Below, piece after piece: positions 146 to 4,890 of a stretch of 35,400 bases of DNA. This DNA is from Prevotella sp. (lineage in GTDB: Bacteria; Bacteroidota; Bacteroidia; Bacteroidales; Bacteroidaceae). The stretch covers positions 1 to 35,400 of the forward strand of contig JAFUFD010000104.1 of NCBI GenBank assembly GCA_017470055.1. The letters run 5' to 3'. The notes below the pieces were generated by a model. That model ran no database searches and was not told where the DNA came from. It saw nothing but the letters and a program-made list of their open reading frames with translations. Position numbers and translations under genes: made by a program. Numbering within the stretch: position 1 is the first letter of the stretch; each line of letters begins with the position of its first letter.

Positions 146-904
146 ATGGCTAAGAATATTTCATTTACGATTAAATTTTGGCGTCAGAACGGTCCGAAAG
201 ATGCGGGTCACTTTGATACGCACGAAATGCACGACATCCCCGATGATACCTCATTTCTGGAGATGCTCGACATTCTGAACGAGGAACTTATCAACGAGGG
301 CAAGGAGCCTTTCGTATTCGACCATGACTGCCGCGAGGGTATCTGCGGTATGTGCTCACTGTATATCAACGGTACACCTCATGGTAAGACAGAGCGTGGT
401 GCTACTACCTGCCAACTCTATATGCGCCGTTTCAACGATGGCGACGTGATCACTGTGGAGCCTTGGCGCTCTGCCGCATTCCCTGTTATCAAGGACTGCA
501 TGGTAGACCGCAACGCCTTCGATAAGATTATTCAGGCTGGTGGCTATACCACGATCCGCACAGGTCAGGCTCAGGATGCCAACGCTATCCTGATTCCTAA
601 GGAGGATGCCGACGAGGCGATGGACTGCGCTTCTTGCATTGGCTGTGGCGCTTGCGTTGCCGCTTGTAAGAACGGCTCTGCCATGCTCTTCGTATCTTCT
701 AAGGTCAGCCAACTCGCCCTGCTTCCTCAGGGTCGTGTAGAGGCTGCCCGTCGTGTGAAGAACATGATTGCCAAGATGGATGAACTCGGTTTTGGTAACT
801 GCACCAATACTCGTGCCTGCGAGGCAGTATGCCCGAAGAACGAGACCATCAGCAATATCGCTCGCCTCAACCGTGAGATGATCAAGGCAAAACTTGCCGA
901 CTAA
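146..904 (+). CDS. sdhB: Succinate dehydrogenase/fumarate reductase iron-sulfur subunit
   Basis: The 252-residue protein has the standard SdhB/FrdB layout. An N-terminal ferredoxin domain carries the 2Fe-2S ligands C62, C67, C70 and C89 (motif [10 protein letters not shown]). A C-terminal domain holds a [14 protein letters not shown] motif (C161, C164, C167, C170, C174) and a second cluster of cysteines (C219, C225, C229) that supply the 4Fe-4S and 3Fe-4S centres. It passes electrons between the flavoprotein and the membrane cytochrome b/menaquinone. In anaerobic Bacteroidales the complex normally works as a fumarate reductase in succinate production (family knowledge). The ATG at 146 lies 5 nt after the flavoprotein stop, so the genes form an operon, and a strong hairpin follows at 922-958. 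Length and cysteines are complete. Confidence 0.95.
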
Positions 905-1712: not shown

Positions 1713-1749
1713 ATCGTTTAGCATGTTGCTGTGCCACAGCAACAGACAT
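1713..1749 (+). repeat. REP-like palindrome, copy 2, abutting the transposase 3' end
   Basis: ATCGTTTAGCATG (1713-1725) is shared with the copy at 957. It is followed by the near-perfect palindrome GTTGCTGTGCCACAGCAAC (1725-1743), with an 8-bp stem and 3-nt loop. It lies directly after the stop of the transposase gene, the usual place for a REP unit in a RAYT/REP pair. Bases 1721-1744 recur identically at 2329-2352 inside that gene. Confidence 0.7.
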
Positions 1750-2768
1750 CACCCATTCCCTTCACAAATAACTTTTGCCATCCCATTCAGTTCCAAGCAC
1801 TGCCCTCTTCTGATGGTTGTCCTCTCATTATGATGCTCCCAAGGAGCAAGGATCAGCAACTGCCCCCTGGCACAAGCATCCATCCTTTTACCACCAGGTT
1901 TCGCTAAATCAGTAAAACCATTCTCCTGCAAATAAATCAGTGGAAACCCTTCCTCAAAAGCAGCCCTCATAATCGTCTTCTCACCCTTAGAGATAGCAGG
2001 CGATACCAGCACAGCCCCTTGACGCGCCGCCTGTAAGCAGGTATTGAGTTTCTCTTGCAATTCATCCTCCGTCATCTTTCTGGAGCACTGCACTTGCATT
2101 TTCTGCGGTCTTTCCAACAAGAATCGGTTGCCAATGGCAGAAAAACGAAGTCCCGCATACGTTAGCCCCCTCTGCACTCGAAAGAGTTCAGGATTCTCCC
2201 GTTTCATCAGCAAACGTCGAGGATTGTCTTTCAGATAGTTCATCCAATGCTCCAACTGTCCATCCCTGAACAAAATCTGATCATTAAACCCCTTCGCAAA
2301 CAGCATCCCATTCTCCCTCGCTTGTCCCGCATGTTGCTGTGCCACAGCAACAAAAGCCTTAGGCATCACCTCCCTAAACACTTGGTTACAAGCCTGCTTC
2401 ACGCCAAGCAGCACCTTCCCCAACGGCTTCTCTAACCTTTCCTTCACAAAGAGTATCGCATGCAGATGGTCTGGCATCATCTGTAAAGCCACCACCTGCA
2501 CCTCGGGGTGATGGCTCCCTATCGATTGCCATATCTGCGCGATAGCCACTCCCAACGTTGATAACTCAATATGAGGAGCCTCAGCCGATGGCGCTACTGC
2601 CTCACTATTGCCCACCACCTTACCAAACAATGGCTTTCGTCCTTCTGTCACCATAGTGATCATATACATCCGTCGCTGTGTGTAGTCATTATCCACACAG
2701 CGTCGTTGCATCGAGGGCTTTTTCTCTCCTGCAAATGCTTTCTGCTTTTCAAACGTTGCTCTATCCAT
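1749..2768 (-). CDS. REP-associated tyrosine transposase-like protein (HUH) with DprA-like C-terminal domain
   Basis: The 339-residue protein has an N-terminal Y1 (IS200/RAYT-type) domain. The HUH metal motif is H101-L-H103 in MMPDHLHAILFV, and the likely catalytic tyrosine is Y178 in MNYLKDNPRR. Such enzymes nick and rejoin single-stranded DNA at REP hairpins (family knowledge). Residues about 220-335 are not part of a minimal Y1 transposase. The stretch GAVLVSPAISKGEKTIMRAA followed by FPLIYL resembles the Rossmann-type DprA/SLOG fold, which is an inference from pattern alone. Residues 140-147 are encoded by a 24-bp segment identical to the REP hairpin downstream, so they look like an in-frame insertion. 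The gene is single and has its own -7 box. It is probably a domesticated one-copy RAYT, not an active insertion sequence, because no element ends are evident. Confidence 0.8.
   Translation of the reverse strand: MDRATFEKQKAFAGEKKPSMQRRCVDNDYTQRRMYMITMVTEGRKPLFGKVVGNSEAVAPSAEAPHIELSTLGVAIAQIWQSIGSHHPEVQVVALQMMPDHLHAILFVKERLEKPLGKVLLGVKQACNQVFREVMPKAFVAVAQQHAGQARENGMLFAKGFNDQILFRDGQLEHWMNYLKDNPRRLLMKRENPELFRVQRGLTYAGLRFSAIGNRFLLERPQKMQVQCSRKMTEDELQEKLNTCLQAARQGAVLVSPAISKGEKTIMRAAFEEGFPLIYLQENGFTDLAKPGGKRMDACARGQLLILAPWEHHNERTTIRRGQCLELNGMAKVICEGNG
2329..2352 (+). repeat. REP-like palindrome, copy 3, inside the transposase reading frame
   Basis: These 24 bp are identical to 1721-1744 and contain GTTGCTGTGCCACAGCAAC. 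Read on the minus strand they encode part of VAVAQQHAG (residues about 140-147) without breaking the frame. Confidence 0.75.
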
Positions 2769-2806: not shown

Positions 2807-2848
2807 CAACTTTTCCAGATACTTTGCCTGTTAATTTAAATTATTTTG

Positions 2849-2856
2849 TATATTTG
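2849..2856 (+). promoter_or_regulatory. Promoter -7 box facing the island (plus strand)
   Basis: TATATTTG matches TAnnTTTG, with a TTTG at 2823-2826 some 22 nt upstream as the -33 element. It points rightward to the hairpin at 3067-3191 and the gene at 3232, and is the best candidate for their transcription. The 2857-3066 leader contains only short hairpins: TGAGGCTCAGCCTCA at 2950-2964, and ACAGAA/TTCTGT at 3006-3023. No supported gene lies there. Confidence 0.5.
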
Positions 2857-3057
2857 CAAACAGAAATCATAGTTAACACAAAGTTAAACCCTTAAAAAAC
2901 AAGATGCCGATGACATAGAAACGAAGAAAACGCTAACCGACCCCATTGCTGAGGCTCAGCCTCACAAGGTCACAGAGAGATTAATAAACAATTAATTATT
3001 AACTTACAGAATAGCGTTTCTGTTCGTACTTATTATATAAGATTTTGGGCTTTTGCT

Positions 3058-3191
3058 CTTGTTCTTGGAAGTTGAATACCGCCAAACATTCACATAGTAA
3101 GAGAACAAGCAGACAGAAGGCTCACGTCCATAAGGCGTGGGCTATTCATGCTTGTTTTACTATATGGTCACTTGGCGGTAACCAAACTTCC
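3058..3191 (+). ncRNA. Candidate structured RNA: long composite hairpin upstream of the secreted repeat protein
   Basis: Five paired blocks nest in order. They are 3067-3073 with 3185-3191 (GGAAGTT/AACTTCC), 3077-3085 with 3172-3180 (TACCGCCAA/TTGGCGGTA), 3094-3100 with 3157-3163 (ATAGTAA/TTACTAT), 3104-3111 with 3149-3156 (AACAAGCA/TGCTTGTT), and a GC-rich apex 3120-3129 with 3134-3142 closed by an ATAA loop. That is about 40 base pairs over 125 nt. An upstream 8-mer CTTGTTCT at 3058-3065 can instead pair with AGAACAAG at 3102-3109, so two exclusive folds are possible. The structure ends 40 nt before the ATG at 3232, so it may be a leader. A stand-alone RNA or a palindromic mobile unit are alternatives. 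No named RNA family was recognised. Confidence 0.5.
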
Positions 3192-3231
3192 GATAAGCAT
3201 CGAATGGTTCCGCCTTTTAATGTTTTTAGAG

Positions 3232-4890
3232 ATGATAAAAGTTAATCAAATATTAGTGATTTTGGTCTTCCTTTTGTTGTTGATTCCCCAACAAGTAAAC
3301 GCACAAAAACAAAAGAAGTTTGATGAAGCGATATCTAATGGCTGGATAGAGGCCAAGGGCTATGCTTATCAAGACAGAATTACAGGGGAGTCGAAACAAG
3401 AAAAGTTCAAGGCTAAGGCAAGAGAAATGGGCTATTTCGTTAATTATTTCGGTGTAGATTGCGTGTATTTCTGTAGAGCAGATGAAAAGGGTAAGTTGGA
3501 TTTGGAAATCGAATACGTCAAAAGAGGTGAAGAATACAAACAGTTTCGAAACGGAAAAAAAATAAAAGGTAGTAGTTTCAAAAATGTGGGTACGGCATAT
3601 GTGCTTTATATGTTAGTATACAATCATCCTTGGTTTGGATCTCGTAATGACCGAGAAATCTACAAGTGTTCTGAGGCAAAATGGACAGGTCAACTTAAAG
3701 ACGGCAAATTAGAGGGTGAAGGTGACGGCTATTGTGTCACAAAAACACAAGATAAGGATTATTCCTGTGCTTTTAGTGGAACTTTCCATAATGGATTCAT
3801 GGTTAAAGGAAAATATTGGTATTTTAAAGAGTTGCCTGGTAAGAACTGGTTTGGTCATAGAATCGAGTTGGAGACAACCCCCTTTTCGGAAGGATTGGCT
3901 TTTATGAAATATAAATTTGGCAACTGGAATACGGCAATTATTGATTCAAATGGCAAAATATTGGTACATCAAGGACCGCTGAAGTCAATTACCGATGTAA
4001 AACAGAACTTTAATAATGGAAAAGCCATTGTAACAATGAACGGCATGGATGTAATTATTAATCCAAAAGGTGAAATTATTGGTATTGATAATAATGTAAA
4101 TACAATAACGAGCAACATCTTCTCTGGAGAAACATCATGCCACATGAAATCTATTATTCTTCCAAATTCTGTGCAGACAATAGCACCAAAAGCCTTTTCT
4201 TCAAATAAATATTTAGAAGAGATATCCCTTCCCGAAGGACTTGTGGAAATTGGGAAAGAGGCGTTTTCTTTCTGTTCAGCCTTAAAAAGTATCAAACTCC
4301 CCTCTACGATTACAAAAATTGGAATAGATGCGTTCAGTTATTGTGAGAATTTAACATCTGTCACGATACCAGTCTCTCTTATCAATTATATTAAAGGACA
4401 ACATATCTTTAAGAAATGTAAACAATTGAATGAAGTTAATGTCGTTGCAGAGAATGGTAAAATAGTTAAGGATGATAACTGGTATTGGAAAGAAGAAATG
4501 AGTCAGGAAGCCCAGATGCAACTGGCAGAAGAAAAAAAGGAACAGAAACGGATTGAGAATCAAAAAATTGAAAACTCATACGATTTTCCTCAACCAGACA
4601 AAAAGCCTGATTTTAAACATGATAATATATTAGAAGATATATTTGAAGATTATAAGTCTGGATATGCTGTATGGAATCAACCAAATATTCATGTAACAAT
4701 CTGTTGGAAGGTCAGTGCAGGATATAATCGTTATTTCTTCTATCATTACAAAAACGGTCGGAGAAGTGTAAGTCCAGACTATAGAACATATGATGATGTT
4801 ATAGCCGCTGCTTGGTTCTATTTTGTTCATGGAAAAACGCGCACAAGAGGACTTTGGAACCCAAGTGATAAGGATTGGTGGGATAGGTAA
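3232..4890 (+). CDS. Secreted mosaic protein with MORN-like, WG-like and BspA-type leucine-rich repeats
   Basis: I chose the ATG at 3232 because it opens a clear signal peptide (MIKVNQILVILVFLLLLI, cleavage after QQVNA). An in-frame ATG at 3148 lies inside the hairpin. The 552-residue product has several parts: an MORN-like unit at about 148-165 (WTGQLKDGKLEGEGDGYC), a WG-like stretch at about 218-245 (FSEGLAFMKYKFGNWN), and three BspA-type (LRR_5) repeats at about 305-385 (NKYLEEISLPEGLVEIGKEA and similar). A charged, helix-prone segment of Q, E and K follows at about 423-450, then an unassigned aromatic-rich C-terminus. Such repeats mediate binding, but the ligand is unknown. It has no catalytic motif. 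The gene is clearly more AT-rich than its neighbours, with many AAA/AAT/ATT codons, which suggests acquisition by transfer. Confidence 0.8.
   Translation: MIKVNQILVILVFLLLLIPQQVNAQKQKKFDEAISNGWIEAKGYAYQDRITGESKQEKFKAKAREMGYFVNYFGVDCVYFCRADEKGKLDLEIEYVKRGEEYKQFRNGKKIKGSSFKNVGTAYVLYMLVYNHPWFGSRNDREIYKCSEAKWTGQLKDGKLEGEGDGYCVTKTQDKDYSCAFSGTFHNGFMVKGKYWYFKELPGKNWFGHRIELETTPFSEGLAFMKYKFGNWNTAIIDSNGKILVHQGPLKSITDVKQNFNNGKAIVTMNGMDVIINPKGEIIGIDNNVNTITSNIFSGETSCHMKSIILPNSVQTIAPKAFSSNKYLEEISLPEGLVEIGKEAFSFCSALKSIKLPSTITKIGIDAFSYCENLTSVTIPVSLINYIKGQHIFKKCKQLNEVNVVAENGKIVKDDNWYWKEEMSQEAQMQLAEEKKEQKRIENQKIENSYDFPQPDKKPDFKHDNILEDIFEDYKSGYAVWNQPNIHVTICWKVSAGYNRYFFYHYKNGRRSVSPDYRTYDDVIAAAWFYFVHGKTRTRGLWNPSDKDWWDR

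Follow-up and report, generated by a model that had tools for sequence, protein, structure and literature searches.

Results

Genes and features at the locus

The window analyzed here is a 35,400-nt stretch of Prevotella sp. contig JAFUFD010000104.1 (assembly GCA_017470055.1), and the element under study lies in it between a transposase-like gene and the gene for a repeat protein. The RAYT-like transposase gene (1749-2768, minus strand; NF047646, E 1.1e-9, 38.3 bits, below the cut-off of 80) is a neighbor that is probably not part of the element. Its product carries an extra C-terminal region that we take to resemble a DprA/Rossmann-type domain, and a relative is encoded elsewhere in the genome (C120:6160-7086). 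On the other side, 3220-4890 (plus strand) encodes a probably exported protein, 552 or 556 aa long, whose leucine-rich repeats are of the BspA type (Pfam LRR_5, E 2.7e-24). By eye it has a signal peptide, and it starts at ATG 3220 or, in frame, 3232; the exported repeat protein that had been placed about 40 nt downstream from sequence alone is thus borne out. In the window and at related loci (L056, L057, L059, L062, L064, L066), sdhB (window 146-904) is followed by different genes, by toxin-antitoxin-like genes or by a RAYT gene, depending on the genome; at L066, part of a second sdhB copy lies beyond the inserted gene.

The element spans 3013-3218 on the plus strand and comprises a small hairpin P2 and a long hairpin P3, both enclosed by a stem P1 whose 3' side leads into a U-tract. 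The 5' strand of P1 (3014-3034, with pairs at 3014-3016, 3020-3026 and 3029-3034; defined by fold, partition function and covariation) joins a 3' strand at 3192-3213 (partition function and fold), and the TTTT at 3215-3218 completes an intrinsic-terminator signature in the sequence. Between the P1 strands lie P2 (GGGCUUUUGCUC, 3047-3058), region 1 (CUUGUUCUU, 3058-3066) and P3 (3067-3191), which has 46 pairs in the minimum-energy fold. P3 consists of stem A (3067-3073 with 3185-3191), which is variable and covaries, stem B (3077-3085 with 3172-3180), the variable stem C (3090-3099 with 3158-3167), the strands D1 (GAGAACAAGCA, 3101-3111) and D2 (3149-3157), and an apical stem-loop E (3116-3146; 3116-3117 with 3145-3146, and 3119-3128 with 3134-3143). 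Positions 3103-3111 of D1 pair with D2, and 3101-3109 can pair instead with region 1, so that region 1 and D2 are rivals for D1.

Folding of 3045-3235 gives -70.2 kcal/mol, compared with -45.2 ± 4.2 kcal/mol for 200 dinucleotide shuffles (z -5.97; 0/200 as good), and the larger domain 3004-3222 gives -78.1 versus -47.3 kcal/mol in shuffles (z -6.60). The sequence-only reading had described a hairpin of about 40 base pairs at 3067-3191. This hairpin is real and forms the core, but the element proper is larger and includes P1 and the terminal TTTT.

Farther upstream, a promoter-like -7 box, TATATTTG (2849-2856, plus strand), has counterparts upstream of part of the other copies. The assignment presumes a TAnnTTTG -7 box consensus; the box is a possible start of the leader transcript, and P3 would then lie in a leader of about 360 nt. 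A conserved 5' module common to other copies, alpha (2883-2990, plus strand), follows. Alpha (also at L063 4179-4386 and L064 3878-4028) is found without the core as well, before toxin-antitoxin-like genes, and may therefore be an RNA element of its own; in some copies it is replaced by another module, beta (CTCCACCGC..GCGGTGG). Inside the alpha module of the window, 2904-2918 (plus strand) could encode a mini-ORF, MPMT*. We considered it as a leader peptide and rejected it: by eye it is roughly present in types I and III and absent from most copies of types II and IV, and a strict pattern matched only 2/6 genomes.

A structured RNA family recurring in Bacteroidales

An initial DNA search matched 30/149 genomes, the window genome included, and a covariance model was built from 29 complete copies over 208 positions. 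The search of Bacteroidales that the sequence-only reading had proposed uncovered a family: the model matches 178/299 genomes of the same genus (E up to 1e-3) and 104/393 Bacteroidales genomes (E 1e-6), the latter in 61/206 genera. Copy numbers from these searches are lower bounds, because only 8 (genus) and 6 (order) candidates were scored per genome. With fuller scoring, 12 chosen genomes had 1 to 15 matches each, with a maximum of 11 places once antisense rows to the palindrome were set aside. The window genome holds four copies on four contigs (E up to 7.4e-7), and among the named carriers are Prevotella, Xylanibacter and Palleniella as well as the cultured strains Paraprevotella clara YIT 11840 and Leyella stercorea DSM 18206. 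Strong matches also come from records labeled Bacillota (L189), a label that is probably wrong, and Roseburia (L244). A record labeled Ignavibacteria (L183) gives a weak match of 49.6 bits, and a Clostridia record (L198) gives no covariance-model match. The phage collection contained no match to the element, and one plasmid-labeled record did (Phocaeicola massiliensis); a single viral-contig match (L274) has none of the other element motifs, looks like chance and was discarded.

No Rfam 15 family matched the window at gathering scores or 3045-3235 and its surroundings (2840-3240) at E up to 1, in keeping with the earlier remark that no named family was recognizable, and ten homologue loci yielded only 5S rRNA and SAM-I/IV, both outside the element. 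No description of the element was found in the literature searched, which did not extend to the supplementary tables of PMC8040213. The element thus appears to be an unnamed, large structured RNA family that recurs in Bacteroidales.

For comparative analyses, a contig scan whose pattern fixes stem B recovered at least 117 stretches (L157-L273). The model was run on 100 of these, leaving out L264-L273 and also seven stretches from contigs already sampled (L160, L163, L184, L190, L195, L216 and L233). It gave 98 matches at 1e-12, and the gene-context set comprises 97 copies, a second match in L248 being left out. These copies share ancestry, so that counts over them are not counts of independent events.

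Several irregular copies and neighboring repeats were encountered. Half copies (L068, L075, L084, L085, L088, L090) could reflect recombination, decay or assembly error. In two genomes, a palindromic insert (TTTGCTGCGCAAAG..) falls within the P1 5' strand or next to it, at L064 (between G034:C73:42469 and 42502) and at L206. A repeated palindrome-bearing stretch near leaders (GCCAATATGCTTGCATAATTGGC in L055; also upstream of L147) is a candidate REP of its own.

Evidence for selection on the structure

Across the 97 distinct copies, 97.5% of 4438 pair cells form standard pairs, and double changes occur at 22/46 pairs, the most affected pair showing them in 62 copies. None of 500 shuffles equaled these values, and controls with slid partners dropped to 33-44%. 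Variation without compensatory change, which the sequence-only reading had named as grounds for abandoning a selected structure, was not seen. Because the 97-copy alignment was fitted to the structure, cognate tests on raw arms were added. Stem A arms reach -9.43 kcal/mol with their own partner and -2.47 kcal/mol with the arms of other copies (88/94 in the best 5%), and stem C arms -8.65 versus -3.66 kcal/mol (68/94 in the best 5%); the mismatched-arm-type controls for these two stems were null. P1 arms likewise favor their own partner (-14.56 versus -11.96). The invariance of stem B in the 97-copy set is by construction, given that the scan pattern fixes it, and in distant families stem B has a different sequence with complementarity kept (by eye). 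The element therefore shows the conserved structure with compensatory changes that is looked for in cis-regulatory leaders.

The stem followed by a U-tract that is expected of an attenuator is present as well. Partition functions place P1 in 92/94 copies, and 93/96 copies have at least four T in the first six positions after it. P1 is weak or absent in 2/5 type III copies (L137, L147). By eye, the variant L089 is without P2 and P3, yet retains P1 and the U-tract before its gene.

D1 has two conserved, mutually exclusive partners

In the window, CTTGTTCT (3058-3065) is complementary to AGAACAAG (3102-3109), an alternative pairing proposed in the sequence-only reading whose complementarity is borne out and conserved. 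In the consensus, region 1 is CUUGUUCU[C/U] and D1 is GAGAACAAG, and P3 pairs D1 with D2. A 9/9 partner for region 1 was present at the D1 site in 85/94 copies of a first set and anywhere else in 8/94. The widest set held 184 distinct copies, drawn from 91 sense rows of a model search, the 97 copies and three loci selected through a small HTH protein; 23 did not fit the region 1 pattern and were left out. Among the 161 parsed copies, region 1 and D1 match at 9/9 positions in 135, at 8/9 in 11 and at fewer in 15.

The three strands also change together. In the 146 copies with at least eight pairs, the region 1/D1/D2 triple reads G/C/G in 124 and A/U/A in eight; in all 11 copies where region 1 carries A instead of G, D1 carries U instead of C, and in eight of these D2 has A as well. 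(These counts replace an earlier one on hand-picked rows: 133/150 with 9/9, G/C/G 122, A/U/A 7.) Seven A/U/A copies span four families of the order (f29, f56, f79, f81), and the excluded copy L230 is an exception, its D1 carrying C opposite an A in region 1. The two exclusive states suggested from the single sequence therefore hold up as conserved pairings, as an attenuator would require. They stand beside a cognate test on region 1:D1 alone that was flat (mean rank 0.478), both motifs being nearly fixed within the genus.

Folding of growing transcripts, an equilibrium model at each length, predicts that region 1:D1 forms early and is displaced later. Over 83 copies, its probability exceeds 0.5 in 76 when the transcript ends 3 nt after D1, in 80 at 36 nt, in 25 at 51 nt and in none at full length. 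In the window copy, the modeled probability is 0.97 at transcript ends 3124-3136 and has vanished at 3156. The full-length minimum is an OFF-like fold, in which forcing region 1:D1 would cost about 15 kcal/mol (window, full length). A further small hairpin upstream of P1, P0, was tried as an antiterminator and dropped, as it gave no signal (mean rank 0.465).

Position before genes and the proteins encoded downstream

A same-strand ORF lies downstream of 93/97 copies, at a median distance of 17 nt. The comparison with gene starts called for in the sequence-only reading favors a leader: where enough sequence was available, 91/93 copies have a same-strand ORF within 160 nt, 88 of the 91 within 60 nt, whereas on the other side and opposite strand an ORF lies within 160 nt in 13/83. 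This placement just before same-strand gene starts is the one expected of cis-regulatory leaders. Upstream, 32/79 copies have a same-strand ORF (100 aa or longer) that ends within 300 nt, an operon-like arrangement.

Exported-looking proteins are enriched among the genes that follow the element (76/93, of which 52 Sec-type and 24 lipoprotein-type) over other ORFs at the same loci (126/451; Fisher p 3e-22), with export called by a simple rule of our own and a background made up of the longest frames (100 aa or more) that do not overlap, which may include false ORFs and so possibly lowers the background rate. A Pfam scan covered 89 of 92 downstream proteins, that of the window included. BspA-type repeats occur in 13/89 of them, and among 25 of the 35 Pfam families listed only leucine-rich-repeat types exceed three members. 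The link to export is weaker in distant families: in 27 copies from the wider order, assigned by eye, 10 precede an exported protein, six a small HTH protein, nine another ORF and two none.

The leader is not obligatory for its gene. Homologues of one downstream protein with an FLGIP motif have the element at 4/16 loci, two of the four being weak matches and two previously in the set; two other FLGIP-motif loci have, by eye, a different long hairpin upstream. At L279 and L283, another long hairpin, ending in CTGCGCCTCTTG, precedes a homologue of an element-carrying gene and is possibly a further subtype.

A small HTH protein follows the element at L301, L304, L311, L314, L315, L324, L252 and L124 (in the window genome) and, by coordinates, at L312. 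Selection by this protein drew on 27/198 genomes, and 30 of the listed matches were taken as loci. In 12/30 of these, the model finds a match ahead of the gene and in its orientation, at 0 to about 190 nt (seven at E up to 5e-8, five at 0.0016-0.0097), and two further loci have a similar long hairpin by eye. The family consensus is HIGKLI..EL..QERSV.WLARKL.C.R.NVY.IF, with members at L354 (C123:18668-18853, window genome), L252, L325, L326 and L352. Pfam matches are marginal (HTH_26 in 4/12 members, best 4.3e-6), and no solved relative was found.

Discussion

We identify a structured element that precedes same-strand genes across Bacteroidales, and we propose, with a probability of roughly 0.6, that it is a 5' leader in which P1 and its U-tract attenuate transcription, timed by strand exchange. 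The proposal draws on observations of several kinds: the family itself, compensatory changes, conserved competing pairings, position and the U-tract. P1 and the U-tract would act as an intrinsic terminator with a large folding domain in its loop. During transcription, region 1 (3058-3066) would pair first with D1 (3101-3109); with the emergence of the rest of the hairpin, D1 would pass to D2 (3149-3157), and P3 would then zip through stems C, B and A, bringing together both arms of P1, so that transcription stops a few nucleotides before the start codon. If a ligand, a protein or an altered polymerase speed kept region 1:D1 in place, P1 would close late and the gene would be read. The handover of D1 from region 1 to D2 would thereby serve as a timer for closure of P1 before the polymerase leaves. 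The order of folding in this scheme is a computed one, and we infer that termination occurs, that it is regulated and in which direction the switch works. Among the options that the sequence-only reading had set side by side, the leader switch gains most, through compensatory changes, gene-start position, exclusive pairings and the U-tract.

A different arrangement of the same strands was favored initially, that of a classic attenuator whose terminator would form between the 3' strand of stem B (GGCGGTAACC) and GGTTCCGCC-TTTT, with the long hairpin serving as antiterminator. The window has the required complementarity (-16.6 kcal/mol, z -2.67, over 3160-3222), and so, by eye, do types I and II. 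We dropped this arrangement in view of divergent copies and partition functions, and we now regard it as highly improbable: copies with an altered stem B retain P1 and lose the pairing of stem B with the terminal strand, 0/94 copies form it at equilibrium, and forcing it costs about 15 kcal/mol. Control of translation start or mRNA decay, with P3 as a 5' structure that protects the mRNA or is cut by RNase III and with ribosomes loading at the U-rich end, would accord with the 46 pairs of P3 in the window and with the median distance of 17 nt from the element 3' end to the ATG. P1 followed at once by a U-tract in 93/96 copies is nevertheless the signature of a terminator, and a static structure needs no conserved competing pairings; we consider this reading unlikely. 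A free sRNA, made from its own promoter as a structured body with a terminator, acting in trans and lying before a gene by chance (the gene being read by leak-through or from another promoter), is to our minds just as unlikely. It would explain the terminal U-tract, the promoter-like box that precedes the window copy and some of the others, and the presence of multiple paralogues in one genome (as many as 11 places among the 12 more fully scored), and multicopy sRNA families are known in Bacteroides, as described for FopS (PMC11697453). A gene start on the same strand just downstream in 91/93 copies, 88 of them within 60 nt, speaks against chance placement, as do the operon-like upstream ORF ends in 32/79. 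The reading keeps some standing because early termination would itself release such an RNA.

Mobility offers another account of a multicopy palindrome, in which the element is a REP- or MITE-like DNA unit moved by the adjoining RAYT, or a recombination site for gene cassettes. A RAYT-like gene adjoins the window copy and lies near two more copies at the same sdhB locus (L056, L064), the genes behind the element after sdhB differ between genomes, and the half copies are fused, by eye, to other, partly coding-looking sequence. Half copies and the variable gene site after sdhB together suggest that leader and gene recombine. As a general mobilizer, however, RAYT was rejected: palindromes are not concentrated near RAYT genes, with relatives in only 2/97 other loci and no model match near the second RAYT-like gene of the window genome (C120). 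The strict orientation to gene starts, the U-tract and the near absence from phage and plasmid records also count against a mobile palindrome, which we judge very unlikely. Of the two alternatives to a leader switch raised by the sequence-only reading, then, the small RNA is compatible with early termination, and the palindromic unit has lost ground.

The small HTH protein encoded behind some copies is a speculative candidate for a partner of the leader. In its broadest form, the idea is of a Bacteroidales-wide RNA regulon, with one leader at up to 11 places per genome acting as a co-transcriptional strand-exchange switch on unrelated surface and secreted proteins, and with an autoregulated small HTH protein (about 66-78 aa), often encoded behind a copy of this leader, as the trans-acting partner that sets it; this extension is a long shot. 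If regulated termination is confirmed, one RNA-level control absent from Rfam 15 would be common to numerous surface and secreted proteins in Bacteroidales of the gut and rumen, among them BspA-type proteins and lipoproteins that have no known domain, and would offer direct access to the way these bacteria select their surface. The element would also be a clean example of conserved co-transcriptional strand exchange, with D1 held by two partners in turn.

Several known systems invite comparison. The palindromic candidate structured RNAs of human microbiomes described by Fremin and Bhatt (2021) include Bacteroidetes candidates predicted as terminators, such as HMP2_4205 (132 bp) near TPR genes, and the supplementary tables of that study might list fragments of the element under a number (PMC8040213). 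REP/BIME sequences with RAYT share with the element a palindromic, multicopy nature and, at the window copy, a RAYT-like gene alongside, but the element is about 210 nt long, has variable, covarying stems, is oriented to gene starts and has RAYT relatives in 2/97 loci. The multicopy sRNAs FopS and GibS of Bacteroides are likewise Bacteroidales RNA families with an intrinsic terminator. FopS is described as combining a single-stranded 5' stretch with a terminator hairpin, as acting on susC-like mRNAs and as deposited in Rfam (PMC11697453); unlike these sRNAs, the element is about 210 nt long, has three helices that meet and sits before genes, and it has no match in an Rfam release that may or may not hold the FopS model. 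Similar in general kind are the attenuators of riboswitches and ribosomal-protein leaders, which also have a structured 5' leader, mutually exclusive helices and a U-tract just before the gene. The element differs from them in lacking an Rfam match and in preceding many unrelated proteins rather than the genes of one pathway.
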